The notes under the pieces were generated by a model that saw nothing but the letters and a program-made list of their open reading frames with translations, searched no databases and was not told the DNA's origin. 13,081 bases of DNA from Ignavibacteria bacterium (GTDB lineage Bacteria > Bacteroidota > Ignavibacteria > Ignavibacteriales > Ignavibacteriaceae), in contig JAUSIA010000239.1 in NCBI GenBank assembly GCA_030648225.1, forward strand, positions 1-13,081, read 5' to 3'. Positions 1-13,081 of the stretch are shown piece by piece (position 1 is the stretch's first letter; each line of letters starts with the position of its first letter). A program made the position numbers and the translations under genes.

Positions 1-1439
1 CCGATGGTACTCCGGCAAAATACTCTCCCAATAATATTCCATTTAAACCAAAAAGATTTATAAAAGTAAATCCTAACGGAGTTCAGGAGGGTGATTTTGT
101 TTTTGTGATGGGATATCCCGGCAGAACTTATAAGCATCAGCCTTCAGATTACTTAGTTTACCAGCAAAAATATCAGCTCCCGTATATTTCTGAATTATAT
201 GAATGGATGATTAATCTTTACGAAGAACAAGGCAATAACGATCCTGAATTTGCCCTGAAAATATCATCTCAAATAAAAAGCCTGGCAAACGTAGAGAAAA
301 ATTATAAAAGTAAATTGGTTGGCATTGATCGTTTAGATATTATTGAAAAAAAGAATGAAGAAGATATACGGCTTGATGAATTTATTAAATCGAATGGTGA
401 ACTTAGAGAAAAGTATGGAAATGTAATTGAAGAAATTGATGAAGTGTACAATGACCTTTATCAATCTGGCAGGCTTCCGCTTATGTTTTCAGTTGTCAGC
501 AGGTATTCTGCTGCATACAGGCTTGCAGAGATTCTTGTGGAAAAGCAGAAAGAGATGAACAAACCTGAGAGTGAAAGGAAAAATATTTATACCGAAAAAG
601 GAAAAGATGATTTGGATAAAACTATAAATAATTTATTTAAAGATTTTTATCCTGAAGTTGATAAAAAAATATTTATAAAAATGCTGTCTGATGCTTCGGT
701 TTTCCAGGAAACTTCCGGTATGGATATTTTTAAAGAACTTAATGAAAAATATTTAGCTGAAGTTTATGATGAAACATCTCTGCTTGATGAATCTGAATAC
801 AGAGAAACTTTAAAATTATCACTGGAAGATTTTGAATCTTTTGAGGACCCTCTGTTTAAACTTGTAAAAGAGCTTGAACAAATAAATGATATGGAAGAAA
901 AGAGAGGTGATTTAAGAGAAGGAAATCTAAATGTACTTCTTCCAAAATATATGGAAGCAAAACGTCTTTGGCTCTCAAAAGATTTTGTGCCGGATGCAAA
1001 TAGTACATTGCGTTTAACTTATGGCTATGTTAAAGGATATTCACCATCAGATGCAACATATTATTCGCCCATAACCACTTTAACAGGTGTAATTGAAAAA
1101 GGTAAAGAAAGCGGGGATTATGAGGTAAATAAAAAGCTGGTTGAGATTTATGAGAAGGGAGACCTTGGAAAATTTAAAGATGAAAAATTAAATGATGTTC
1201 CTGTAGCAATTTTATATAACACAGATACAAGCGGTGGCAATTCAGGCAGCCCCGTTCTTGATGCTTACGGGCAATTAGTTGGTGTTAATTTCGACAGAGC
1301 ATTTGAAGGAACTATTAATGATTTTACTTGGAGTCCTCTTTACTCAAGATCAATTGGTGTTGATATACGTTATGTTTTATTTGTTACACAAAAAGTTGGA
1401 GGAGCAGATTTTCTTTTAAAAGAAATGGGAGTTTTATAA
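1..1439 (+). CDS. S46 family dipeptidyl-peptidase, DPP11-like (5' end outside window)
   Basis: Periplasmic or surface serine exopeptidase that removes dipeptides from the N-terminus of oligopeptides. The reading frame is open from base 3, giving 478 visible residues. The GTG at 105 is an internal Val in VMGYPGRTYKH, a typical S46 block, so it is not the start. Near the C-terminus, TSGGNSGSPV carries the catalytic Ser (codon 1242-1244). Phe at +16 and Arg at +18 from that Ser (codons 1290 and 1296, in VNFDRAFEG) match Phe671 and Arg673 of Porphyromonas gingivalis DPP11, where Arg gives Asp/Glu preference; DPP7 enzymes have Gly there. From the Ser to the end is 64 residues, close to the family, so roughly 240 N-terminal residues are missing, including the signal peptide and the His and Asp of the triad. 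The middle part is helical and charged, as in the S46 lid domain. Family call is firm; acidic specificity is inferred. Confidence 0.93.
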   Translation, partial: DGTPAKYSPNNIPFKPKRFIKVNPNGVQEGDFVFVMGYPGRTYKHQPSDYLVYQQKYQLPYISELYEWMINLYEEQGNNDPEFALKISSQIKSLANVEKNYKSKLVGIDRLDIIEKKNEEDIRLDEFIKSNGELREKYGNVIEEIDEVYNDLYQSGRLPLMFSVVSRYSAAYRLAEILVEKQKEMNKPESERKNIYTEKGKDDLDKTINNLFKDFYPEVDKKIFIKMLSDASVFQETSGMDIFKELNEKYLAEVYDETSLLDESEYRETLKLSLEDFESFEDPLFKLVKELEQINDMEEKRGDLREGNLNVLLPKYMEAKRLWLSKDFVPDANSTLRLTYGYVKGYSPSDATYYSPITTLTGVIEKGKESGDYEVNKKLVEIYEKGDLGKFKDEKLNDVPVAILYNTDTSGGNSGSPVLDAYGQLVGVNFDRAFEGTINDFTWSPLYSRSIGVDIRYVLFVTQKVGGADFLLKEMGVL

Positions 1440-1890
1440 AATTAATGCTGGATTTTAAAGGTCCGGTTATATCTAAATTTTTACGTAATTGTACATTATG
1501 AACTGAGAATTTGTATGGAATATTTCCTCCCAAAATAATACAAAACAGGTAAAAATTACCTTTGACTTACTTTTCTGCCCAAGGCTCTCCTTCTGGAAAA
1601 GGAAGATGGAATCAAAAAAAAATTAATCCTTCCAAATCTCCACAAGTTATTTCCAGTAATAATGGACTCTTTCTTTTCTTATTTGACTTTTAGCAACAAA
1701 ATATTCTTAAGAAATTAGAAAAATTAACTCAATTATATACTCATTTTTAAATTCTAATTTTGAGACCAGTGTGGCATTGAACATGACGTAATAGAGCAGG
1801 TTTTTATTCTTATACATGAAAAAACTTGATTTGTAATTATTACAACATTCAGAAGAATTATTATAAAAGATTTTAGAATCGGAGGAATAA
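1440..1890. other. 451-bp intergenic region without a convincing gene
   Basis: This gap separates the S46 peptidase from the two-gene helicase unit. It holds a small perfect hairpin at 1547-1561 (AGGTAA, 3-nt loop, TTACCT) followed by a mixed T-rich stretch, which might be a weak terminator. A cluster of short inverted G/A- and C/T-rich blocks lies at 1588-1633 (TCCTT/AAGGA at 1588-1603, and GGAAG 1601-1605 with CTTCC 1629-1633); these could form a weak alternative structure. A minus-strand open frame covers part of the region, but its composition is that of random AT-rich sequence and it runs into the next gene antisense. A possible but weak promoter is TTACAA at 1840-1845 with TATAAA at 1862-1867 (16-bp spacer). 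I see no RNA gene or repeat array. Confidence 0.5.
1881..1886 (+). promoter_or_regulatory. Ribosome-binding site of the 176-aa gene
   Basis: GGAGGA lies five to six bases before the ATG at 1891. It is the clearest Shine-Dalgarno sequence in the window and fixes the start of the gene. The other genes have weak or no such site. Confidence 0.75.
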
Positions 1891-2421
1891 ATGGATCTTC
1901 GCAAAATTGCCTTTCTTGAAACATACACCTTAGAAAATGATGGTGGTATAATGGGTGCTATTCTCGTAACTGATGGTGATACCAAACCACTCGAGTTCAG
2001 GGTAACTGCACCGATTAAACCTACAAATTTTCAGAAGACTCTTTATGGAGATGTACTTCTTGAGCACATTTTAACGGAGCTTGTTTCTGTCCCTCTGCTT
2101 AATGCAATTAATGAAGAGATTGATTTGATTCTTGTCAGAGATCCTCTCTTCCTGGGTGTTAATGAAAAGCAGGGAATAAGAGTAGTAAGAGTTATAAATG
2201 AGGAAGATAAGAATTTTAAAGCAGGTAAATCTATTCAGGAACTTGCATCTTCAAACGGAAGCCCAAAAACTTATGTTGAGACTTCCAAGAAATTTGAATC
2301 GGAATTAGCAGAGATAAAAGCAAAACTCAGTTTTTTATCAGAACATAGAAACCTGGTAGAACCATTCGACAGACTGAAAGTTGCCTGCGAGCAGGTTCAC
2401 CTTCAGAAGACTGGTGAGTAA
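1891..2421 (+). CDS. Conserved-looking protein of unknown function, first gene of helicase unit
   Basis: I do not recognise a named family. The 176-aa product has no signal peptide or membrane segment, so it should be cytoplasmic. Residues 1-110 look like a compact alpha/beta domain: alternating hydrophobic strands (ILVTDGDT, EFRVTAP), then the striking block PIKPTNFQKTLYGDVL at about residues 42-57, a hydrophobic helix (LTELVSVPLL), and strands around IDLILVRD and GIRVVRVI. A short polar linker follows, and residues about 125-160 form a charged, probably coiled-coil helix. The start is set by the strong GGAGG site. The stop is 24 bp before the SNF2-like gene on the same strand, so the two are probably co-transcribed and may act together. 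Possible roles such as nucleic-acid binding or an accessory subunit are guesses from this pairing only. Confidence 0.85.
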   Translation: MDLRKIAFLETYTLENDGGIMGAILVTDGDTKPLEFRVTAPIKPTNFQKTLYGDVLLEHILTELVSVPLLNAINEEIDLILVRDPLFLGVNEKQGIRVVRVINEEDKNFKAGKSIQELASSNGSPKTYVETSKKFESELAEIKAKLSFLSEHRNLVEPFDRLKVACEQVHLQKTGE

Positions 2422-2445
2422 ATCTGCCAAAGACGGATAAATTGA

Positions 2446-5262
2446 ATGTACAAAACAATCAGGAAAAAGGTTGCTTCTACTGTTTCTGAAATTGAAAGAA
2501 CTGAAGATTTTGCCTGGGGTAAATGGCTTAAAGAACCTGCACTGAGTGAACATACCATAGAAGGTTTCCAGACTTCGCTTCTTGATACCAACCAATATAA
2601 CTCCTGGCTGGAAAAACCGGAATTCCAGAAAAAGAAATTTGATTTCAGGGAAACATTTGTTTTTCCCGAATCTAAAAATCTACATCCTAAAAAATTTAAA
2701 ACTCACACAGTCTTTTTTGGTCTTGCAAAAACTGAAGTAAAGAAATTAAAACTTTTTGACAGACAATTTAAATTTGAACATAAACCTGAAAAAGTAGAGT
2801 TTAGAAGTATTTCTGTGAAACTGAAAGATATTAAATGGAATTTATCCCCAACAAAAGTTGAAGAAAAGCCATGGGAATTAAAACCATATATCTTAAAAAT
2901 TGATCTGCTTGAACCGGATAATTTGGTGCTTAATAAATATGCCGGTAAAGAATCTAAAGTAGAGTTTAAAGTTGTAAAAGCTCCTCCAAAAATTTATAAA
3001 GTAAAGATCACTGGTTTAGATAAAATAAAGCTTGCCAAAATTTATTACCTTAAAAACATTAGCCTGCACGATGTAAGAATATTAAGAGATTCATATAATC
3101 TTCTTACTAAACCCGCAGTTCAGCAGGAAGATCTAAAATATTTTGTAACTGAAGAGGAGAAAAAGACGGAAGTTTTACAGGAAGAAACTATTGTTGAAGA
3201 GACGAAACCTGTTGAGGAAATAAAACATGTTGATACGGAAGAATCAGAAGGGATATATAATGAGTTTATTAATAAGAGTATTGATCAGCAAATGTCTGAA
3301 ATTCTTTCCGGTGACTTCAATCCTGTAGAATTAGTTAAAGAGGATCAAATTCAGCAGGAAACAAAACCTGAAGAAACTTTGGAAGCCCCGGTTTCCAATG
3401 AAGATATTTACAACCATGAAAAAGAAAAAATTATTGAGGAACCTGAAGAAGCTGAACCCGAGGAAGTTGAAGAACCTGATGAAGCTGATGAGAATGAACA
3501 TGAAAATGAATTTGAGTCTCTATATTACTTTCAGGAATCAGGTGCTGAATTTTTATTAGACGGGAAGCGTGCTCTATTATCAGATGAAATGGGAATGGGG
3601 AAAACTATACAGGTGATCGCCGCTTTGAAGAATCATTTTGCAGGCAAAAAAATTAAGTCTGCAGTTATTGTTTGTGAATCAACTGAAATCGGGAGTTGGG
3701 GAAAAATAACCGGAGATGTTGATGGATGGCTGGGACATTTTCATCAAAGAGCACCGGAATTAAAAGTTGAAGCAGGGGACGGAACTCCGCAGGAAAGAAG
3801 CAAACAATGGAAGGAACTACCTGATGTTTTAATCCTTTCTTACGATTCTTTCTTTTTTGATCTTGAAGAAAATATTATTAATTCAAAAGAACTGAAGAAA
3901 ATCAACTGCTTTATTTTTGATGAAGTCCATAATTTATTTAATCATAAAAATTATAACACCCAAAAACTTTCAAAAGCAATTAATTCAAAATATCTCTGGG
4001 CTCTAACAAGTTACCCTGAAGAGGCAGTAAAAGAAAAATTAGAAAAAGTATTTAAAGAGAAACTTTCAATTAAAAATTACCTTGGAAGATCAAGGAAAGA
4101 AGTTGCAGGAGATCTTCGCGGAATTACCTGGCAGAACAAATGGCTTACTCTTGATGAAGAACAGGTTGAAGACTATAATGAAGCATTTGCAACTGCAAAA
4201 GAAAAAGTGCAGTGGTTTCTTGAATCGGGAAATCCACTAAGGTTTAATGCTAATGTATTTACGCTTCTTCATCAGCTTAAACAGGTCTGCAACTTTTCCG
4301 AGAAAAAAGGGAAGAGCAGGAAAACAAAAATACTGCTGGAGCATGTAAACCGGATTGAAAAAAACAACCAGAAAGTTGTTATCTTTTCACAGTATGATAA
4401 AGCGGGGACGAAGAAGATTGAAGAGGTGTTGAATAAAAACAATATTAAATTTCTTTCTTATGCACCCGGAATGTCAACCAAGGAAATGGAAACTGTACTG
4501 AAGAATTTCAGCAGCCCCGCAGGAAGCGGGGTAACCGCACTTGTTTCCGGTATTAAACCTTCAAGAGTAAAAATTCCTTCAGGAAATATTTCTTATGTTA
4601 TTCATTTTGATCTATGGTGGAATCCAGCTTCATTATGGCAGACTGAGGAAGCAGTAATTGGTTCATCAAATGGAGAAAAACAAAACCTGAACGTTTACAG
4701 CTACCTAATGAAAGGAACAGTTGAAGAAAGAATTCATTCGCTTCTTTATAAAAAAGGATTCCTCAATAAGCATGTAATGGAAACAGTAAACCCTGATTCT
4801 ATAGCAGAGATGTTAACCAATCCGGAATGGCTTGAAATATTTGATATGCCTGATGAAGAATATAAACAGAGATATCAAAAAGGACTCCTTGAGACAGAAA
4901 GGAGAATTGATAACTATTCAATAAACGAGTTTATGGAGAGAGGTAAAAACTTTTTTGCAAAGCTTGGTTATAAGAATCTTGATGCAGCAGAAAATAAAAA
5001 TGGTGATTCATTTGATATAAGGGGAATTTTCAAGAAAGCAAAGTTCGATCAGCAGATGAGCGCAAGGTTTTTGCTTAAAGAAACTGTAAACGAAGATGAA
5101 GTTAAAGCACATCTTGCTGAACTTAAAGTGAAATCAAGTAATGGAAAGTTTTTTCTTATCACAAAAGGCACTTTTGAAGGTGACAAAGTCATTCGCCCGA
5201 ATGAAGCATTAATAGACCGCAGACTGCTCATTAATTATTTCTACCAGTTTATAGTTATATAG
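2446..5262 (+). CDS. Divergent SNF2-like ATPase with C-terminal Mrr-like domain
   Basis: Protein of 938 aa with an in-frame TGA immediately before the ATG, which makes this the first possible ATG. Residues 1-235 are Lys-rich and match no family I know. Residues 236-357 are a strongly acidic, probably disordered linker. The SNF2 core runs from about 357 to 790: a Q-motif-like FQESG, Walker A DEMGMGKT (K386, T387), Walker B DEVH (492-495), motif IV VVIFSQY (to Y650) and VIHFDLWWNPA (WW at 724-725), then GTVEERI. Motif III is ALTSYP instead of the LTGTP type, the Gly-rich part of motif V is missing, and DRAHRIGQ of motif VI is replaced by EEAVIGSSNG, without Arg. Residues about 826-935 resemble an Mrr-type nuclease fold (FFAKLGY, DSFDIRG, EDEVKAHL, KFFLITKGTF, ALIDRRLL), but the expected Q-x-K reads QMS (870-872). 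I infer an ATP-binding DNA-associated protein that is perhaps not a normal translocase or nuclease. Gene 24 bp upstream is its likely partner. Confidence 0.88.
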   Translation: MYKTIRKKVASTVSEIERTEDFAWGKWLKEPALSEHTIEGFQTSLLDTNQYNSWLEKPEFQKKKFDFRETFVFPESKNLHPKKFKTHTVFFGLAKTEVKKLKLFDRQFKFEHKPEKVEFRSISVKLKDIKWNLSPTKVEEKPWELKPYILKIDLLEPDNLVLNKYAGKESKVEFKVVKAPPKIYKVKITGLDKIKLAKIYYLKNISLHDVRILRDSYNLLTKPAVQQEDLKYFVTEEEKKTEVLQEETIVEETKPVEEIKHVDTEESEGIYNEFINKSIDQQMSEILSGDFNPVELVKEDQIQQETKPEETLEAPVSNEDIYNHEKEKIIEEPEEAEPEEVEEPDEADENEHENEFESLYYFQESGAEFLLDGKRALLSDEMGMGKTIQVIAALKNHFAGKKIKSAVIVCESTEIGSWGKITGDVDGWLGHFHQRAPELKVEAGDGTPQERSKQWKELPDVLILSYDSFFFDLEENIINSKELKKINCFIFDEVHNLFNHKNYNTQKLSKAINSKYLWALTSYPEEAVKEKLEKVFKEKLSIKNYLGRSRKEVAGDLRGITWQNKWLTLDEEQVEDYNEAFATAKEKVQWFLESGNPLRFNANVFTLLHQLKQVCNFSEKKGKSRKTKILLEHVNRIEKNNQKVVIFSQYDKAGTKKIEEVLNKNNIKFLSYAPGMSTKEMETVLKNFSSPAGSGVTALVSGIKPSRVKIPSGNISYVIHFDLWWNPASLWQTEEAVIGSSNGEKQNLNVYSYLMKGTVEERIHSLLYKKGFLNKHVMETVNPDSIAEMLTNPEWLEIFDMPDEEYKQRYQKGLLETERRIDNYSINEFMERGKNFFAKLGYKNLDAAENKNGDSFDIRGIFKKAKFDQQMSARFLLKETVNEDEVKAHLAELKVKSSNGKFFLITKGTFEGDKVIRPNEALIDRRLLINYFYQFIVI

Positions 5263-5360: not shown

Positions 5361-6341
5361 TTACTGTTGTTCTGTTTCAAAGTTGGTTTTAACTTTTTTC
5401 CCTTTTATAAAATCTGAAAGTTCTATAAACCCCCCTGAAAGAGAGACTAATACTGTATAAAAAAACAACAGGAAGGAATAAGCCATAGCATCTCCTGCAG
5501 GTATTCCATAATTACCCAATAAGAAAACTAATGAGCCTTCTCTTACTCCCAGTCCGGCAAAAGAAATTGGAAGTATCGCTAATATTCCTATTACCGAGCC
5601 GATCCATGCAATGTCAAAAAAAGTAATATTAATTCCCAGGGATAAAGCTAATAAATAGGCAGCTATAATCCCTAAAAAATGATAAAAGAATAGTAGCCCA
5701 AAGATTTGAAAATTATCTTTCAAAGTTAATTTCTGGAATTTTTGTATTGACTTGAAAAGTTTCGGAATAATGTTTTTGATTAGTTCAGGAAATGGAATAA
5801 ACAATATCTTTCTTTCAAAAAAAGTTAAAAATCTGGAGTTAAGTAGAAGAAAATATGAAACAATTATAATTAAGAAGATAAACAACCAAATTAGAATAAG
5901 CTGATTTTGCTTGGCCTTTATGAGTGCTGGCAATGAAAAAATAATTCCAGTATAGAATAACATAAGTATCTCAAGGAAACGGTTAAAAACAACAACGGCA
6001 GCAGCATCTGATTTGCTTCCATATTTAGAAAGCTTGTACCACTTTATAGCTCCGCCCGAAAGTGTTCCCGGTAGAAATAGGCCGTAAAACCTTGTAGCCA
6101 TCTGTATCTTTAGTATCTGAAAAGTTGAAATAATTATTCCCATTGCTCTGGTTAAATAACCGGTTTCAAAAGCTGATAAATAAACGATTGGTATACAAAT
6201 AAGTATGCTAAGAATTATTAAGAAAATATCTGCATTTTCCAAAGATTTAACGATCTCATAAATCGGTATCTTGTAAAAGAGAAATGAAAGAATAGTCCCA
6301 GAAATAGCAAGTTTTAAAAACAGTTTGATATTTTTTTTCAT
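5361..6341 (-). CDS. Flippase-like membrane protein, LPG-synthase TM family
   Basis: Integral inner-membrane protein of 326 aa from the lysylphosphatidylglycerol-synthase transmembrane / UPF0104 family (PF03706 type). Hydrophobic spans occur at about residues 7-23, 39-58, 66-80, 122-141, 147-168, 212-235, 243-260 and 285-304. Family signatures are visible: FLPGTLSGGAIKWYKL (about 89-104), NRFLE (R121, E124) and PISFAGLGVREG (P258, G263, R267, E268). Members act in lipid or glycolipid handling, or transfer a residue to a lipid; the short form without a soluble catalytic domain often lies in polysaccharide and glycolipid loci and is called flippase-like, but its reaction is usually unproven. 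It is the last gene of the minus-strand cluster, 29 bp after the phosphodiesterase-like gene, with no clear Shine-Dalgarno site. It converges on the SNF2-like gene across about 98 bp in which I see no clear terminator. Confidence 0.85.
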   Translation of the reverse strand: MKKNIKLFLKLAISGTILSFLFYKIPIYEIVKSLENADIFLIILSILICIPIVYLSAFETGYLTRAMGIIISTFQILKIQMATRFYGLFLPGTLSGGAIKWYKLSKYGSKSDAAAVVVFNRFLEILMLFYTGIIFSLPALIKAKQNQLILIWLFIFLIIIVSYFLLLNSRFLTFFERKILFIPFPELIKNIIPKLFKSIQKFQKLTLKDNFQIFGLLFFYHFLGIIAAYLLALSLGINITFFDIAWIGSVIGILAILPISFAGLGVREGSLVFLLGNYGIPAGDAMAYSFLLFFYTVLVSLSGGFIELSDFIKGKKVKTNFETEQQ

Positions 6342-6370
6342 TTTAGATTTAAAATAAAGCAGGATTTTTT

Positions 6371-7909
6371 TTATAAGATATCTTCGATCACCTTGCCATC
6401 ATAATCTTCAAGTACTGAAACACCAAGGAGATGAAGAATAGTTGGAGCTAAATCTACGATATGTTTCTTTTCAAAAGTTGAATTTATTTTAATGTTTTTT
6501 CCAGCAGCTAATAAAAACCCTTCCGGACGATGGTTGCCGCTTCTGCCATCAGGATTAATCCCCGGTGAGGGCCATTCCAGCTCACCATATTCTGATGAAA
6601 TTATTTTTTTATAGCTTACTGCAGGTTTAAATTTCCATTTTACTATAATATCGGGTAAATTATTAAACCCATTCCCCTTATAAAATATTTGGTCACTTCT
6701 GCTTATGCTTTCTACCACAGGTTCAAAATTATTTGCATCTTTAAAAGTTTTCAACCCTTCAATTACTTTATTGCAAAGCCAATCATATTCTTCCCCTTGT
6801 TCGACTATACCTTCCTTTTCTCTTCCTTTTAAATTAATTCTGATATAACCCTGAAGATCGGCAACTAAGTTAAAGACTTTAGTTGTGGTCCAGTCTACTT
6901 TACCCATTCGCCAATAGGCCGTCATTTTATCTTGCAGCCAGAATGGAAGGAACTTTCTAAAATTTGATCTCCATTCCAATGGAACTGCATTTCTTAATTT
7001 TTTTATGAAATTATCACTTTTAATTTTTTCTGATTCCGCTTTACCATTTAAAATCCTTGCGATCATTTGAAGCAGAATTTTATCAGCAAGAGTTGTATTC
7101 ACTCCCATTCCATGCAGCGAAAAGATTAAAATTGTAGCTTCCTTACTGGTGCAATTTATAATTTTGCCTATAGCTTCATCGCAGGATTGATAAATGTCCC
7201 TTAAGGCATTATCAAATTGTATTTTCTGTTCTTCTGAAAAATCACCTTTTATATTTGTTGGCTCCCAAAATTTATGTCCTCCTCTGTGCGTGGAAGAAAA
7301 ACAGCATAAGAATAAATTCCATTCTTCATCTTTAATTAAAGCAGTAACAAGTTCAGCTTCTTTTTTATTAGCGTTGATCAACTCATCTTTTAATTTCAAA
7401 AGATCAGTCATTTCCTGAAGTCCGCCTACTTCATCACTAATTGGCGGTTTACCAAAATTTTTTATTACCCAATTAATCTTTTCTTTTGGAAAAGATGATA
7501 TAGGATAAATCCTGTCATGCAAAGCCCAGCCTGAAATTTCAATTCCATTGAATGTTTTAGGCGGGTATGTTAAAGGCATATCAACTGCAATAACTTTACA
7601 ATTATTGTCTAATAGTCTATAGAAAGGAGTTGCCGGAATCCATTCTGGGTTTGGTCGTTCATAATCCATTTTATCACTGTTCCATTGAAGATAATGGTAA
7701 AACCCATGTTTTCCGGCAAGAGTTGATGTGTGGAAAGTTGGCCAGGTTGAACCTACCAGCCAGTCGGCTGAGGAATTTAATCTTCCATAGGTTCCCTTTA
7801 AACGCAAAGAAGCTAAATTTTTTAAATATCCTTCATTCATCCATCTTTCAATTAAGCTTGGTTCAGCAGCATCTAAACCAATAGCAAGAATTTTTTTAGT
7901 TGATTTCAT
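6371..7909 (-). CDS. Alkaline-phosphatase-superfamily phosphodiesterase/phosphatase-like enzyme (copy 1)
   Basis: Complete 512-aa member of the type I phosphodiesterase/nucleotide pyrophosphatase branch of the alkaline phosphatase superfamily, expected to break or transfer a phosphate (or related) ester using two metal ions. The N-terminal ILAIGLDAAEP has the first metal Asp (D13). GSTWPTFHTSTLAGKHGF (about 53-70) holds the probable Ser/Thr nucleophile. Later blocks are STHRGGHKFW (H208, H212), FSLHGMG (264-269), GRSGNHRPEGF (H460) and IVDLAPTILHLLGV near the end. The usual D-x-x-G-H reads H-x-x-G-H and the usual S-D-H-G reads S-L-H-G, typical of a divergent subfamily. There is no signal peptide, so it is probably cytoplasmic. 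The start overlaps the 3' end of the Gfo/Idh/MocA gene by 14 bp, indicating translational coupling. It is paralogous to the gene at 11914. Substrate unknown; the glycan genes around it suggest a sugar-phosphate derivative. Confidence 0.87.
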   Translation of the reverse strand: MKSTKKILAIGLDAAEPSLIERWMNEGYLKNLASLRLKGTYGRLNSSADWLVGSTWPTFHTSTLAGKHGFYHYLQWNSDKMDYERPNPEWIPATPFYRLLDNNCKVIAVDMPLTYPPKTFNGIEISGWALHDRIYPISSFPKEKINWVIKNFGKPPISDEVGGLQEMTDLLKLKDELINANKKEAELVTALIKDEEWNLFLCCFSSTHRGGHKFWEPTNIKGDFSEEQKIQFDNALRDIYQSCDEAIGKIINCTSKEATILIFSLHGMGVNTTLADKILLQMIARILNGKAESEKIKSDNFIKKLRNAVPLEWRSNFRKFLPFWLQDKMTAYWRMGKVDWTTTKVFNLVADLQGYIRINLKGREKEGIVEQGEEYDWLCNKVIEGLKTFKDANNFEPVVESISRSDQIFYKGNGFNNLPDIIVKWKFKPAVSYKKIISSEYGELEWPSPGINPDGRSGNHRPEGFLLAAGKNIKINSTFEKKHIVDLAPTILHLLGVSVLEDYDGKVIEDIL

Positions 7910-8882
7910 TTAAAAAAATTTCCTTTCCGTTTTTATTAATTGAAATACGGGTTGCTTCAATTGCTAATATTGCGGCAATTCCATCTTTGATCCCGGGATG
8001 AGCCTGATTATTTAATCTGATTAATTCGAAGAAATTTTTTAATTGAATATCATAAGTTTTTTTTATAGGCGAAGTCTTCCTCGTGAGTTTTCTTTTAATC
8101 ATATCATTTAAGTCAAGGAATGATCTAATATTTCCCGGTTCCGGATTTATCCTTACCGAAGAAAGAGTTACAAAAAAAGTTTCATTATCACTTCTTACTT
8201 TAATTGATTTTATTGTTTTGTTTAAATGTGAAAGATGACATTTAATAGAAATTCCTCCGGAAATTTTAACATTCATTTGAAAAATATCTTCACCTGCTGA
8301 AACAGCAGATATTGATTTTATCTCCTTATTAAAGATGAATCTTATTAAATCAAATAAATGAGGACCTAAATTGTCTAAGGGATCGCTAATAAATGAAACG
8401 GGGTTCCACTTACTATAATTACTCGTAAGGACCATTTCTGCTGAATTAATTTTTGGATTTTCAGAAAGTTTCTCTTTTAAATGAACTATTGGCTGCCAAT
8501 ATCTATGATTAAAGCCCATCATAAGAGATGCTTTTGAAGATGATTCCAGCTCAATTAGTTCTTTTATTCCTCCTGTTGATAATGCCAGCGGTTTTTCGAC
8601 TAATACATATTTATTTTTTTTTAATAACTCAGAAGACAATGCAATGTGTGTATCAGGCGGGCTGCATATAATTCCGGCATCAATTTGGTCAATTAAATTT
8701 CCATCCAGTGAATGATAATGAAAACAATTTTTAAATTTTTTACCGATCAACTCTCTTCTTTCTTCATTAGGGTCTACAACCGCTACAACTTCAACATCGG
8801 AAAATTTATTTATTGCCGATAAATAAATTAATTCAGCAGCCCTGCCGCATCCTATTAATCCAATTTTTAATGAGGGAATCAA
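7896..8882 (-). CDS. Gfo/Idh/MocA family sugar oxidoreductase
   Basis: Cytoplasmic NAD(P)-dependent dehydrogenase of 328 aa, a usual length for the family. The N-terminal Rossmann fold shows IGLIGCGRAAE (G8-x2-G11-x-G13) and an acidic residue after the second strand (VVDPNEER). VEKPLA (E96, K97, P98) is the family hallmark near the active site. In the C-terminal domain DNLGPHLFDLIRF carries the likely catalytic H175 and D178. Members in glycan loci oxidise or reduce sugar nucleotides or free sugars, for example at C3. The start overlaps the stop of the upstream glycosyltransferase in an ATGA, and its own end overlaps the next gene by 14 bp, so it sits firmly inside the operon. The substrate cannot be predicted from sequence alone. 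Confidence 0.92.
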   Translation of the reverse strand: MIPSLKIGLIGCGRAAELIYLSAINKFSDVEVVAVVDPNEERRELIGKKFKNCFHYHSLDGNLIDQIDAGIICSPPDTHIALSSELLKKNKYVLVEKPLALSTGGIKELIELESSSKASLMMGFNHRYWQPIVHLKEKLSENPKINSAEMVLTSNYSKWNPVSFISDPLDNLGPHLFDLIRFIFNKEIKSISAVSAGEDIFQMNVKISGGISIKCHLSHLNKTIKSIKVRSDNETFFVTLSSVRINPEPGNIRSFLDLNDMIKRKLTRKTSPIKKTYDIQLKNFFELIRLNNQAHPGIKDGIAAILAIEATRISINKNGKEIFLNEIN

Positions 8883-9802
8883 GTATGTTCCTTCAAAAGC
8901 TTTTGATTACCTTTCCAAAATCCTTTTGTCCAGGCTGATAATCCCAAAATTAAAAAAGGGAAGTAAAATATAATTCTTACAATTCCTATCGGATTCCACT
9001 GCATCGTCCGGACTGAAATATAAATTAACCTCTTAAATCCGAACAGAAGCGAATATAACCAACTGCTTCTAAATTTATTTTGTTTGGAAGAAATCTTTAG
9101 ATTTAAATAACCTCTATAAAAACCAAGACTTTCATTATGCTTCATAAACCCGGTAAAATTTTTTCTGCCGCTATGATGTATAACTATTTGAGGATTAAAA
9201 ATAATTTTACCTTTACATATTCTAATTGCAGATTCACTAAATTTTACATCTTCGCCGGTTTCAACCTGTTCCGGAAACCCACCTGTCTTAATAAATAATC
9301 CTTTAGTAATTCCTAAATTGCACGCCGGGAAATGACTAATATTATTTGATGGACGATGCTTCTGGAAATCGGGGAACTGCAATAAATTATCAACAGATGC
9401 AATTGGATGAAATGGGTATAAATTAATTATCGGACCTATAACTATTTCATTTCCATCTTTTAGAGATGAAAAAATTTTAAAGACCCAGGTTGAAGAAGGG
9501 ACACAATCTGCATCTGTAAAAGCTAAAAGGTTTGATTTCGAATTTAATACACCAAGATTTCTTGCTTTTCCAGGATACATTAATGAATTAGAAGAAATTA
9601 AAATTACATTTGGTATCGAATTAATTAATTGTTTTACCTCCTGGTCATTTCCACTTTCCACAACTATCACTTCAAATGGATAATCAAAATTTTGATTTTG
9701 TAATCCATTTAAACAGCATGCTAAGTCCTGTTTATCACCATAAAAAGGTATAACCACTGATATTACTATAGAGGAAATTTGAGAATTGACTTCACTGTTC
9801 AT
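8879..9802 (-). CDS. Glycosyltransferase family 2 (second GT of the cluster)
   Basis: Protein of 307 aa with a GT-A fold that transfers a sugar from a nucleotide-sugar donor. After a short N-terminal tail, ISVVIPFYGDKQDL begins the fold; FEVIVVESGND (44-53) is the nucleotide-binding strand; FTDADCV gives the metal-binding DxD (D97, D99); GGFPEQVETGEDVKFS contains the catalytic-site ED (E184, D185). The C-terminal part has an amphipathic and hydrophobic segment (about 272-293) that probably anchors it at the inner membrane. It is separated by one base from the upstream GT2 gene and shares an ATGA with the downstream dehydrogenase. It is clearly different from its GT2 neighbour, so the two probably add different sugars or make different linkages. 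Donor and acceptor are unknown. Confidence 0.92.
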   Translation of the reverse strand: MNSEVNSQISSIVISVVIPFYGDKQDLACCLNGLQNQNFDYPFEVIVVESGNDQEVKQLINSIPNVILISSNSLMYPGKARNLGVLNSKSNLLAFTDADCVPSSTWVFKIFSSLKDGNEIVIGPIINLYPFHPIASVDNLLQFPDFQKHRPSNNISHFPACNLGITKGLFIKTGGFPEQVETGEDVKFSESAIRICKGKIIFNPQIVIHHSGRKNFTGFMKHNESLGFYRGYLNLKISSKQNKFRSSWLYSLLFGFKRLIYISVRTMQWNPIGIVRIIFYFPFLILGLSAWTKGFWKGNQKLLKEHT

Positions 9803-9803
9803 C

Positions 9804-10718
9804 TTATTTGAACAAACTTAAAAAACTGCGAAAATGAGTATAAACTATTTTATACTCCCCGCGAGTTAGCTGCTTGAGAATAAGTATCAATGTTTTAAAT
9901 GGTAAAACGGAAAAAATAGTTATAAGTTGCAAGATATTTGCATGTTTTTTTATTAAATAAAAATAATTCTTTACTTTGTAAAACTCATACTCATCTACTG
10001 CTTTACCTCTTCCTTTTTTGCCCCCCTTATGATAAATAATTGCTCTATGGTTATAAAAAATCTTAAAACTTTTTTCTTTTGCCCTGATTGAAAAATCAAC
10101 ATCTTCCCACCCATAGGGATTAAAGTTTTCATCAAAAAGTCCAACTTTGCTAATTAGTTCATTACTAACGAGACACAATCCTCCACATGATGAAATGAAT
10201 TTAGATTGATCATATTGTCCTTCATCTTTTTTTCCACCTCCAATATTAACAATCTTACCTGTGAATAGATTAACAGACATTCCTCCTGCATATCCAATTA
10301 TCCCAGGCATATTCATTATATAGCATTTTGGTGTAACAATGCCGATGGTTTTATCCAAATCAAAAGATTTAACCATTTCGGAAAGAGCATATTTTTCTAC
10401 AATAACATCATTATCTAAAAACAGAATAAATTTATAATTAAATTTTTCATTGGCGAACCTGATGCCGAGATTACGTCCCCCTGCCACTCCTAAATTTATT
10501 TCACTTTCAATGAGATGAATATTTGGGAATTCATTTTTAATTGCATCCACCGATCCATCCCTGGAGCCATTATCTACAACAATAACTTCAAATTCTTTAT
10601 AGTCCTGTTTGAATATACTGTTTAGACATTCAAGAAGATCCTCTTTTTTATTGTGATTTAAAACGATTATAGCAACAAGATGCTTTTTATACATAATGGG
10701 TTGATTTTCCTCAAACAT
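9804..10718 (-). CDS. Glycosyltransferase family 2, rhamnosyltransferase-like
   Basis: Protein of 304 aa with all GT2 landmarks: VAIIVLNHNKKEDLLECL, VIVVDNGSRDGS (D49), NLGVAGGRNLGI (75-86), FLDNDV with the DxD-type site (D102, D104) and FNPYGWEDVDFSIRA (E205, D206, D208). The NHN, NxGxxGGRNxG and WEDVDF blocks are those of the WbbL/rhamnosyltransferase-like subgroup, though donor specificity is not proven by them. The C-terminal 60 residues are hydrophobic and basic, probably membrane-associated. A second possible start is the ATG at 10692-10694 (Met9), just before the first beta strand; neither start has a convincing Shine-Dalgarno site. It follows the only sizeable gap in the cluster (165 bp) and is one base from the next GT gene. 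Confidence 0.92.
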   Translation of the reverse strand: MFEENQPIMYKKHLVAIIVLNHNKKEDLLECLNSIFKQDYKEFEVIVVDNGSRDGSVDAIKNEFPNIHLIESEINLGVAGGRNLGIRFANEKFNYKFILFLDNDVIVEKYALSEMVKSFDLDKTIGIVTPKCYIMNMPGIIGYAGGMSVNLFTGKIVNIGGGKKDEGQYDQSKFISSCGGLCLVSNELISKVGLFDENFNPYGWEDVDFSIRAKEKSFKIFYNHRAIIYHKGGKKGRGKAVDEYEFYKVKNYFYLIKKHANILQLITIFSVLPFKTLILILKQLTRGEYKIVYTHFRSFLSLFK

Positions 10719-10883
10719 ACTTTTTCAGGATATTTAATAAAAACATTATTGTAAAAATCTATATGGTTGCTTATTGTGACCCTGCTAAATTTTTGAAACT
10801 CCTTTTTGCTACCTGCCCGTGACTTCTGCAGATTCCAATAATGGGATCTTGAAAAAGAGAAATTTAATAATTCCCCTGAAACA
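10719..10883. other. 165-bp gap inside the minus-strand cluster
   Basis: This is the only gap over 30 bp between cluster genes. Just at its upstream edge, a 5-bp hairpin (CCTGA at 10884-10888 and TCAGG at 10875-10879, read on the minus strand, loop TGTT) includes the stop codon of the aldo/keto reductase. It has no T-run after it, so it is not a standard terminator. A minus-strand frame runs through the gap, but it begins inside the reductase gene, continues into the glycosyltransferase gene, and resembles no protein I know. An internal promoter is possible, but I see no good -35/-10 pair. Confidence 0.4.
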
Positions 10884-11897
10884 TCAGGAAGATACAGTAT
10901 ACTTTGATTCTTGAGAATAAATTTTAAAGACTTTTTCCAATTCTTTAAAAGATAGATCCGGCTTTGAAAGTATTCTGAGATTTTCTTTAAGATGTTCAAA
11001 TGATTTTGTTCCTGCAATAAGAGTTGATACCTCATGAAATTTAAGAATAAACCTGATAGCAGCTTCGGGTATAATTTTTTTATTAATTTCCTTTTCCAGC
11101 TTTTTTAAGTTTCCCTTATGTCGCTCATAAAATTCTTGCCCGCTTATTAAAGATCCGGTTTTCACTTTGCCATATTCTGTTAATAATCCTCTTGCAAGAG
11201 GCACTTTTGCAATTATTCCGATTTTTTTTTGCTCAAGAAATGGGAAAAGTTTCCACGCAGCTTCCTGATGAAGCAAATTAAACTCTATCTGTAAAGCTGA
11301 AATTTCAGGATAATTTAAACACAAAACAGCATCATCTATTGTATGTGCAGAAACCCCATAAAAACGAATTTTACCTTCTTTCTTCAGCTCGTTTAAAATT
11401 TTAAATATTTCTCCTTTTTGGATTAATTCAGTAGGAGGATTATGGAGAAGATAAAAATCTATATAATCTGTATTAAGCCGTTTTAAACTTTTCTCTATAG
11501 ATGATTGAATATGCTTATAAGAAAAATTCTGATTTTTTTTAGATAGTTTCTTTAAATTCTTTTTAAATGGAGCAATCAGCTTTCGTGCATTACCAAGAAA
11601 AGGGATTAAACTTTTAGCCCTTAAGCTTAATGACGATGGCAAAAAACCAACTTTTGTACAAATAATTACTTTACTTCTTTTATTCCCGAATGCTTTGCCG
11701 ATCAATATTTCCGAATGTCCATAAGCATAGCTATCAGCAGTATCAAAAAAGTTAATACCGTTTTCAAAAGCATAGTTCAGAACCTTGAGAAATTCATTTT
11801 CATCAGCATAGTTAAATATTGAATTGCCGAGGGAAGAACAACCCAATCCCAGTTCAGAAACTTCTAATCCTGTAAAGCCTAAATTTCTATAATTCAT
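10884..11897 (-). CDS. Aldo/keto reductase family oxidoreductase
   Basis: Cytoplasmic NADPH-dependent reductase of 337 aa with the TIM-barrel AKR fold. MNYRNLGFTGLEVSELGLG is the standard opening. The catalytic tetrad is complete: D52 and Y57 in FFDTADSYAYGHSE, K82 in CTKVGF and H152 in YLLHNPP. Later, IRFYGVSAH, LQIEFNLLHQEA and STLIAGTKSFEHLKENL match strand and NADP-binding regions of the family. The stretch at about 85-125 is a longer, Lys-rich insertion than in most short AKRs and probably forms a surface loop. In glycan clusters such enzymes often reduce a keto-sugar or are annotated as putative sugar dehydrogenases; the true substrate is not known. It starts 16 bp after the stop of the phosphodiesterase-like gene upstream, which supports co-transcription. 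Confidence 0.92.
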   Translation of the reverse strand: MNYRNLGFTGLEVSELGLGCSSLGNSIFNYADENEFLKVLNYAFENGINFFDTADSYAYGHSEILIGKAFGNKRSKVIICTKVGFLPSSLSLRAKSLIPFLGNARKLIAPFKKNLKKLSKKNQNFSYKHIQSSIEKSLKRLNTDYIDFYLLHNPPTELIQKGEIFKILNELKKEGKIRFYGVSAHTIDDAVLCLNYPEISALQIEFNLLHQEAAWKLFPFLEQKKIGIIAKVPLARGLLTEYGKVKTGSLISGQEFYERHKGNLKKLEKEINKKIIPEAAIRFILKFHEVSTLIAGTKSFEHLKENLRILSKPDLSFKELEKVFKIYSQESKYTVSS

Positions 11898-11913
11898 ATT
11901 TGCTAAAATAAGA

Positions 11914-13081
11914 TTATGAACTTATCATATCATTTAAAACTTCCCCATCAATATCATCCGGGATTGGCACATTAAAAAAATGAAGAATCGTTGGAGCAAT
12001 ATCCATAATATTTTTTTCTTCAAGCTGCTTTAAGGGTTTGATATTTTTTCCATTAGCTATTATGAAACCGTAAGTTTGATGTGCACCTGAACGCTTATCG
12101 GGAAGTTCTCCTTGTATTGTTCCAATTCGTGTTGAATAAAGAGAATCTATAGGGTTTTCTCCTTCCCATTTTATTATTATATCGGGAAGATCATTAATAT
12201 ATTTACCACTATATCGCTCTCTTACTTTTATAACTTCTTTTACAGCTTTACTCCCTGTTCGAGGATTAATTAATTCGAGAAAAACATTCTTTATCTCTTC
12301 ACATATAATATCATATTCTTTACCAGGATTTACTTGTCCCAGTGGCTCACGCCCATTTAAATTAATTCTTATGGCTCCGGTAAAATCGGTTGGAACAGTA
12401 AAAGCCTTGCTATATTTCCAATCATTTCCCAATGTTAAAAATCTTCTTGTCCAGTCATCCCACAATTTTGCAGGAACAACTTTTTTAACTTTTTCTATCA
12501 CCTGGGCAGAAATTAAATTTTCAACTTTTTTTATTGCATAAGGTCCCCATCTTCCGGCGGGAAAGAATTTTTCTAATATATTTTTATCATTTTGGTGATT
12601 ACCATTTCCTGCCAATCCGATTTTTTTTAATATTTCAGGAACGAGGTGTTGCCCCGAATAATTTGGTCCCATTCCGGTATTAGAAAAAATAAAAATTGTT
12701 GCCTCAGGATATATTTTAATTATTTCACTTAGCGATTTATCAACTTCTTTATAAACATCAATAATAGCATCTCCACACAATTTGGCAGTTTCAGGGTTAT
12801 ATTTTGGATTTTTTTCATCCATCAAATGCCAGAAATAGTGGCCAGCCCAGTGCATTTCAGCAAAACCTATAAGAAAAAAATCCCAGGGTTCTTTTTCCAT
12901 TATCCATTTTACGATTGAAGTTCTCTTCTTTACACCAATTAAAAGTTTCTGCCGGAGTTCTTCCCATTCATCTGCATCTTCAATTATTTTTTGATACCAA
13001 CCTTCAAGAGGATGATGCCCAAATCTTGAAAAAATTTCTTTAAGCAGTTCCGGAGGTTGTGAACATTGTTTGAAATTTAAA
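11914..13081 (-). CDS. Alkaline-phosphatase-superfamily enzyme (copy 2, N-terminus outside window)
   Basis: Paralogue of the gene at 6371. The frame stays open to the window edge, about 60 codons beyond the ATG at 12898-12900; that Met lies inside a conserved region (IVKWIMEKEPWDFFL), so it is not the start. About 388 residues are visible, and roughly the first 100-150, with the first metal Asp and the nucleophile, are missing. Visible blocks are GFAEMHWAGHYFW (second His codon at 12838-12840), FSNTGMGPNYSGQHL, GAIRINLNGREP, LPDIIIKWEG, DKRSGAHQTYGF and IMDIAPTILHFFNV, which line up in order with copy 1. It differs at the usual S-D-H-G site: here SNTGMG, with Thr where copy 1 still has His, so metal binding may be altered. 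It is the most upstream visible gene of the cluster, 16 bp before the aldo/keto reductase. Presumably it handles a phosphate-type ester on a glycan intermediate; this is inference. Confidence 0.85.
   Translation of the reverse strand, partial: LNFKQCSQPPELLKEIFSRFGHHPLEGWYQKIIEDADEWEELRQKLLIGVKKRTSIVKWIMEKEPWDFFLIGFAEMHWAGHYFWHLMDEKNPKYNPETAKLCGDAIIDVYKEVDKSLSEIIKIYPEATIFIFSNTGMGPNYSGQHLVPEILKKIGLAGNGNHQNDKNILEKFFPAGRWGPYAIKKVENLISAQVIEKVKKVVPAKLWDDWTRRFLTLGNDWKYSKAFTVPTDFTGAIRINLNGREPLGQVNPGKEYDIICEEIKNVFLELINPRTGSKAVKEVIKVRERYSGKYINDLPDIIIKWEGENPIDSLYSTRIGTIQGELPDKRSGAHQTYGFIIANGKNIKPLKQLEEKNIMDIAPTILHFFNVPIPDDIDGEVLNDMISS

Follow-up and report, generated by a model that had tools for sequence, protein, structure and literature searches.

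Bacteria often pair a helicase with a nuclease, and such pairs are usually explained by what they catalyse. In Hachiman, which follows this two-gene design, HamB is a working helicase and HamA is a nuclease, according to the available part of the report (PMC12278908). Inactive forms of one of the folds have also been described. In the portions of the papers that are available, DndH has an inactive SWI2/SNF2 P-loop domain without arginine fingers that is proposed to bind DNA (PMC10853773), and PglZ has an inactive SWI2/SNF2 domain proposed for recognition of invasive nucleic acid (PMC12839542). ZorD of the Zorya system combines an SNF2 helicase with an Mrr-like nuclease. The window analysed here, a 13,081-nucleotide contig (C176; JAUSIA010000239.1, assembly GCA_030648225.1) of an Ignavibacteria bacterium, contains a two-gene unit. 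ORF1 (1891..2421, plus strand, ATG start, TAA stop) encodes a very strongly conserved 176-amino-acid protein with a predicted RNase H fold, and ORF2 (2446..5262, plus strand) encodes a 938-amino-acid pseudo-SNF2 protein. The chances are about even that the unit is a pair of nucleic-acid-enzyme folds that lack the canonical catalytic residues and bind or sense nucleic acid. No description of the pair was found in the titles and abstract beginnings that the literature searches brought up.

The pair is real and fixed. One protein-database search counted 390 ORF1 homologues, 120 of which were listed, and 35 loci with ORF1 were found in GTDB genome contigs. At every one of these loci ORF1 is followed on its own strand by a gene of the ORF2 family (one BLAST cluster, partial copies included), and with mechanically chosen starts the gaps between the genes range from -37 to +28 bp. 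ORF2 is a single frame of 755-1164 amino acids in 31 loci, is truncated where the contig stops in three (L049, L053, L058), and is in two frames in L052. Among 59 genomes, comprising that of the window and its relatives, 17 have the pair and 42 have no ORF1. Strong matches to ORF2 (E <= 2.5e-38) occur in exactly the 17 genomes with ORF1 and share its contig and strand; the ORF2 gene of G001 is divided between two contigs. Weak ORF2 matches (E 1e-9 to 1e-19) are found in 11 further genomes of the 59. Only the ORF1-ORF2 pair is constant, since the next commonest neighbor, the FeoB gene, reaches just 17 of the 35 loci. In G032 (locus L050) the gene order is a 113-amino-acid gene, SpoU methylase, ORF1, ORF2, and an amylase-like gene. 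In G005, from the same genus, the 113-amino-acid gene, SpoU, and the amylase-like gene are contiguous, the last two being 33 bp apart, and G019 has this arrangement without the pair as well. Such an empty site was seen in two of 11 pair-less regions around the SpoU gene (those of G005 and G019), and the flank differs in the other nine.

An earlier interpretation made from the letters of the window (the sequence-only reading) had proposed a two-part unit. This proposal is supported because adjacency is fixed in both directions (35/35 loci; 17/17 genomes) and the genes are present or missing as one cassette. The pairing at 35 of 35 loci is far beyond chance. The expectation of fixed adjacency across distant phyla held for the adjacency but not for the phyla, as the pair was found in one order only. 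In a sample of the phylum, 11 of 395 genomes carry ORF1, every one of them in the order of the window, and the record titles of the 35 loci read Ignavibacteria, Ignavibacteriaceae, Ignavibacterium, Melioribacter(aceae), Bacteroidetes, and similar names. L052 (JAHIYS010000144.1), which has the pair on a 3.4-kb contig with ORF2 broken into two frames, is labelled Gammaproteobacteria and is probably a mis-binned Ignavibacteria contig. Searches of viral contigs, plasmids, and phage records found no relatives. As part of the whole best explanation, it is an even call that the two genes encode an obligate protein pair of Ignavibacteriales.

The agreement of gene trees suggests vertical inheritance. 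In 16 genomes the distance correlations were 0.83 for ORF1 and ORF2, 0.67 for ORF1 and RecA, and 0.64 for ORF2 and RecA, and in permutation tests of each correlation 0 of 5000 were as high. The correlation between ORF1 and ORF2 is 0.71 once RecA is removed. Supported clades mostly recur across the ORF1, ORF2, and RecA trees, with G044 sitting elsewhere in the RecA tree. Presence of the pair changes six times on the RecA tree compared to a mean of 10.0 for shuffled labels (4/500 shuffles as low); this tree holds 17 genomes with the pair and 13 chosen ones without it, which are not an unbiased sample for label counts. From these trees it looks as though the pair was inherited vertically from an old ancestor, with losses. 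Mean corrected distances are 0.51 for ORF1, 2.06 for ORF2, and 0.20 for RecA, so that ORF2 has diverged about four times as much as ORF1. In the seven of 13 genome pairs where both could be estimated, dN/dS is 0.018-0.059 for ORF1 and 0.071-0.174 for ORF2, values that are rough because dS is above 1 in most of the seven.

ORF2 has a SNF2 core from which key motor residues are gone. The two-lobe SNF2 fold is present (residues 351-800; 3496..4845, plus strand), and SNF2-rel_dom matches the window protein with an E value of 2.1e-17. In contrast to SWI2/SNF2 ATPases such as the Sulfolobus core (1z63), ORF2 lacks the motif VI arginine pair, which is found in 0 of 35 family members versus 85 of 85 ordinary relatives; in the window its positions are A736 and G739. 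The Walker A motif GK[ST] is lost in 21 of 51 members, a hand-picked set made up of the window protein, 29 database proteins, and 21 of the 35 loci. Both Walker A and the motif II DE are intact in 25 of the 51. Members without Walker A are spread over several branches of the tree, and no number of losses is claimed because the tree leaves the base of the family unresolved and has long branches.

The C-terminal Mrr-like domain of ORF2 (about residues 826-938; 4921..5259, plus strand) has no conserved nuclease motif. Nucleases of the Mrr or PD-(D/E)xK type have the motif D ... (Q/E)xK. In ORF2, position 857 is D in 26 of 49 members, position 872 is Q in three and E in none, and position 874 is K in 13 and R in 29. 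The three motif residues never occur together in one member. The Mrr_cat profile matches 12 of the 51 members, the window protein not among them, and three members (L050, L055, L070) seem to be without the domain. A PHROGs search with ORF2 gave only a DNA helicase family and weak rows. Thus the description "SNF2/Mrr-like" was right at the family level, given SNF2-rel_dom in the window and Mrr_cat in other members, while the suggestion of a DNA-processing SNF2 ATPase is unsupported because the motif VI arginine pair is missing from every member examined. ORF2 also differs from ZorD in that its catalytic motifs are degenerate and its partner is a predicted RNase H-fold protein, and there is no ZorA- or ZorB-like gene among the eight neighbors in the window. 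The remaining N-terminal region (residues 1-350; 2446..3495, plus strand) has mostly pLDDT below 50 and is acidic near its end. Conserved positions within it are R6, A10, W27, L28, F90, F91, L154, and L155, and the region is a candidate for docking ORF1.

The fold predicted for ORF1 is a compact RNase H fold of the Endonuclease V/UvrC/PIWI class. An RNase H-like fold as in Endonuclease V was found in the predicted structure; the Endonuclease V family (PF04493) is the closest known to ORF1, and the UvrC C-terminal RNase H domain and PIWI are more distant folds. ORF1 differs from Endonuclease V in giving no sequence match, in having Gly at the Asp position in subclades, and in having an SNF2-like partner gene at 35 of 35 loci. 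Pfam gave no family at E <= 1, hence no PF04493 match, and PHROGs gave none. NCBIfam rows (E 0.12 and 0.17), an MTase_II match (E 0.006), and the single row from a comparison of the ORF1 profile with sequences of solved structures (E 0.86) were judged to be chance. The small protein therefore stands outside known families in these collections, as the sequence-only reading had it. Profile comparison with Endonuclease V and UvrC alignments gave no significant match, and the former comparison is weak because two of the 14 Endonuclease V rows (L098, L103) look wrong-frame. As to whether ORF1 replaces Endonuclease V, profiles of that enzyme match three of 41 genomes, one of which (G044) also carries the pair, and these counts favor neither answer. 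L106, from another genome of the phylum, has an Endonuclease V-like protein (214-amino-acid frame) that scores 39 bits versus >200 for ordinary Endonuclease V and is a divergent subfamily.

Conservation in ORF1 is very strong and is highest away from the expected catalytic position. The most conserved stretch, as judged by entropy and invariant positions, is residues 19-75 (1945..2115, plus strand), with a mean entropy of 0.25 bits at residues 19-45 and 0.44 bits at 46-75 in 157 sequences. In a larger set of 231 rows, which is unthinned and in which loci and database proteins may overlap, E35, E58, D78, N91, E138, E157, and R161 are invariant and H59 is present in 230. Residue 10, which we take to be the position of the strand 1 catalytic Asp of Endonuclease V in catalytic numbering, the register being deduced from the start points of VIA alignments, is E in 198 of these rows, D in 13, G in 18, and N in one, with one gap. 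One subclade has Gly there in each of its 14 members. A conserved catalytic Asp in strand 1 thus appears to be absent from ORF1.

Since ORF2 has lost key motor residues, the likely role of the pair is to bind or sense nucleic acid and not to cut it or move along it. ORF2 would grip DNA through both lobes, and in the subclade of the window, where Walker A and B are intact, it might bind ATP without efficient turnover. The long, flexible N-terminal region would dock ORF1, and the complex would sense or mark a nucleic-acid structure without translocation or cutting. In such a complex ORF2 would be the DNA-gripping scaffold and ORF1 the conserved reader, possibly with a sensor or regulator role. 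A more specific version is put forward tentatively, at somewhat less than even chances. It holds that two proteins, one helicase-like and one nuclease-like, have each abandoned canonical catalysis and jointly read nucleic acid, the ultraconserved surface of ORF1 recognizing one universal target while fast-evolving ORF2 adapts around it. The functional claim is kept moderate because the enzymology is deduced from sequence. Several observations weigh against the non-catalytic reading. Just one of five structure models of ORF1 was confident (mean pLDDT 76.5 versus 37-46 for the others), and sequence profiles gave no support for the fold. An acid is kept at residue 10 (E/D) in 211 of the 231 sequences and at residue 84 (D/E) in 215. 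The window ORF2 has intact Walker A (GMGKT, 383-387) and DE (492-493) motifs, and a lone motif VI arginine remains in a few members (the second in 1/35; the first in 3/51, in another alignment), so some ATPase activity is possible.

Two alternatives give the pair a working nuclease, and both are unlikely. In one, ORF1 would be a noncanonical but active nuclease like Endonuclease V or UvrC that ORF2 loads onto damaged or transcribed DNA, for DNA repair or RNA processing. The predicted fold and the acids mostly kept at residues 10 and 84 can be read in this way, but Gly stands opposite the catalytic Asp throughout one subclade, the most conserved stretch does not have positions 10 and 84 at its center, and the profile comparisons were not significant. 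Slightly less probable is an active immune system working as in Hachiman, where a sensor helicase restrains a small effector nuclease; here ORF2 would sense DNA and release ORF1 as a nuclease. The two-gene design with a large, fast-evolving protein and a small partner, the matches of ZorD and DpdE profiles to the ORF2 SNF2 core, the absence of the pair from many lineages, and the inactive SWI2/SNF2 domains proposed as DNA binders or sensors in the available text on DndH (PMC10853773) and PglZ (PMC12839542) all point toward it. However, none of the eight window neighbors has a PADLOC match, and of ten neighbors at six other loci two match, one to GlgB and one to ZorB/MotB. The latter, encoded next to the pair in L080, is an outer-membrane protein that matches ZorB models weakly via its OmpA domain. 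The scanned neighbors do not form a defence island. The lack of relatives in phages, plasmids, and viral contigs, gene trees that largely match RecA, Gly at the RNase H Asp position in subclades, and the lost arginine pair also argue against it. The defence setting raised by the sequence-only reading thus found no support in the PADLOC scan, the vertical-looking inheritance, or the mobile-element searches. A defence role is possible, but the context does not suggest one.

The other two explanations are more doubtful still. ORF1 could be a new enzyme on an RNase H scaffold, its active site built from other invariant residues such as E35, E58, H59, D78, and N91, with ORF2 as a targeting scaffold. 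The invariance of the charged residues fits this proposal, but a binding surface would explain it equally well, and the new enzyme is judged improbable. Least probable of all is that ORF2 is merely decaying and the unit is being lost. Many members have lost ATPase motifs, the unit is missing from 42 of 59 genomes, and in L052 the gene is in two frames. Against decay, 31 of 35 loci have a single frame and three more are contig-end cuts, the ORF2 dN/dS values indicate purifying selection, and ORF1 is under very strong constraint.

The host genome is incomplete (69% complete, 510 contigs). The two genes of the pair lie on one strand 24 bp apart, as first noted, and a Shine-Dalgarno-like GGAGGA was read directly before ORF1 (1881..1886, plus strand). 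The isolation of the unit was also borne out: a gene-free 451 bp (1440-1890) separates ORF1 from an S46-family peptidase gene, and the first gene 3' of ORF2 is convergent (5361-6341, minus strand). The peptidase gene (3-1439, plus strand) covers the C-terminal part and runs off the contig start. The minus-strand run at 5361-13080 encodes a lysylphosphatidylglycerol (LPG)-synthase-type membrane protein, a phosphodiesterase-like protein, a second, weakly sulfatase-like protein, a Gfo/Idh oxidoreductase, two GT2 glycosyltransferases, and an aldo/keto reductase, and is possibly a surface-glycan cluster. Rfam at gathering scores had no match anywhere in the window. Elsewhere, the FeoB gene lies upstream on the opposite strand in L053, L056, L058, L059, L062-L069, L071, L072, L074, L076, and L079, and FeoA-type and Fur-type genes occur in 14 and 13 of the 35 loci. 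These neighbors are regional synteny and lie outside the unit.

In its working the pair may be a reduced form of DndH, PglZ, or Hachiman, but it is assigned to none of them. As far as the available text on those systems goes, ORF2 is like the DndH and PglZ domains in being SNF2-derived with catalytic residues gone, but for those proteins the description covers just the second P-loop domain, in systems of more genes, whereas ORF2 has both lobes and a single fixed partner. The unit, like HamAB, combines a large helicase-type protein with a smaller one, but HamB is described as a working helicase and HamA as a nuclease. No Hachiman-named row was found for either protein in a profile scan in which the presence of HamA/HamB models was unchecked. 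Throughout one order selection has maintained the pair, even though no member examined has the arginine-finger pair and Gly is tolerated at the RNase H Asp position. The nameless ORF1 family gains a predicted fold and a partner. If this holds, the unit would show what a helicase-nuclease pair is capable of once canonical catalysis is gone, and it would provide a testable model for pseudo-SNF2 proteins. Under the more specific version of joint reading, the entire complex would be the counterpart, confined to one order, of the lone inactive SNF2 domains in DndH and PglZ.
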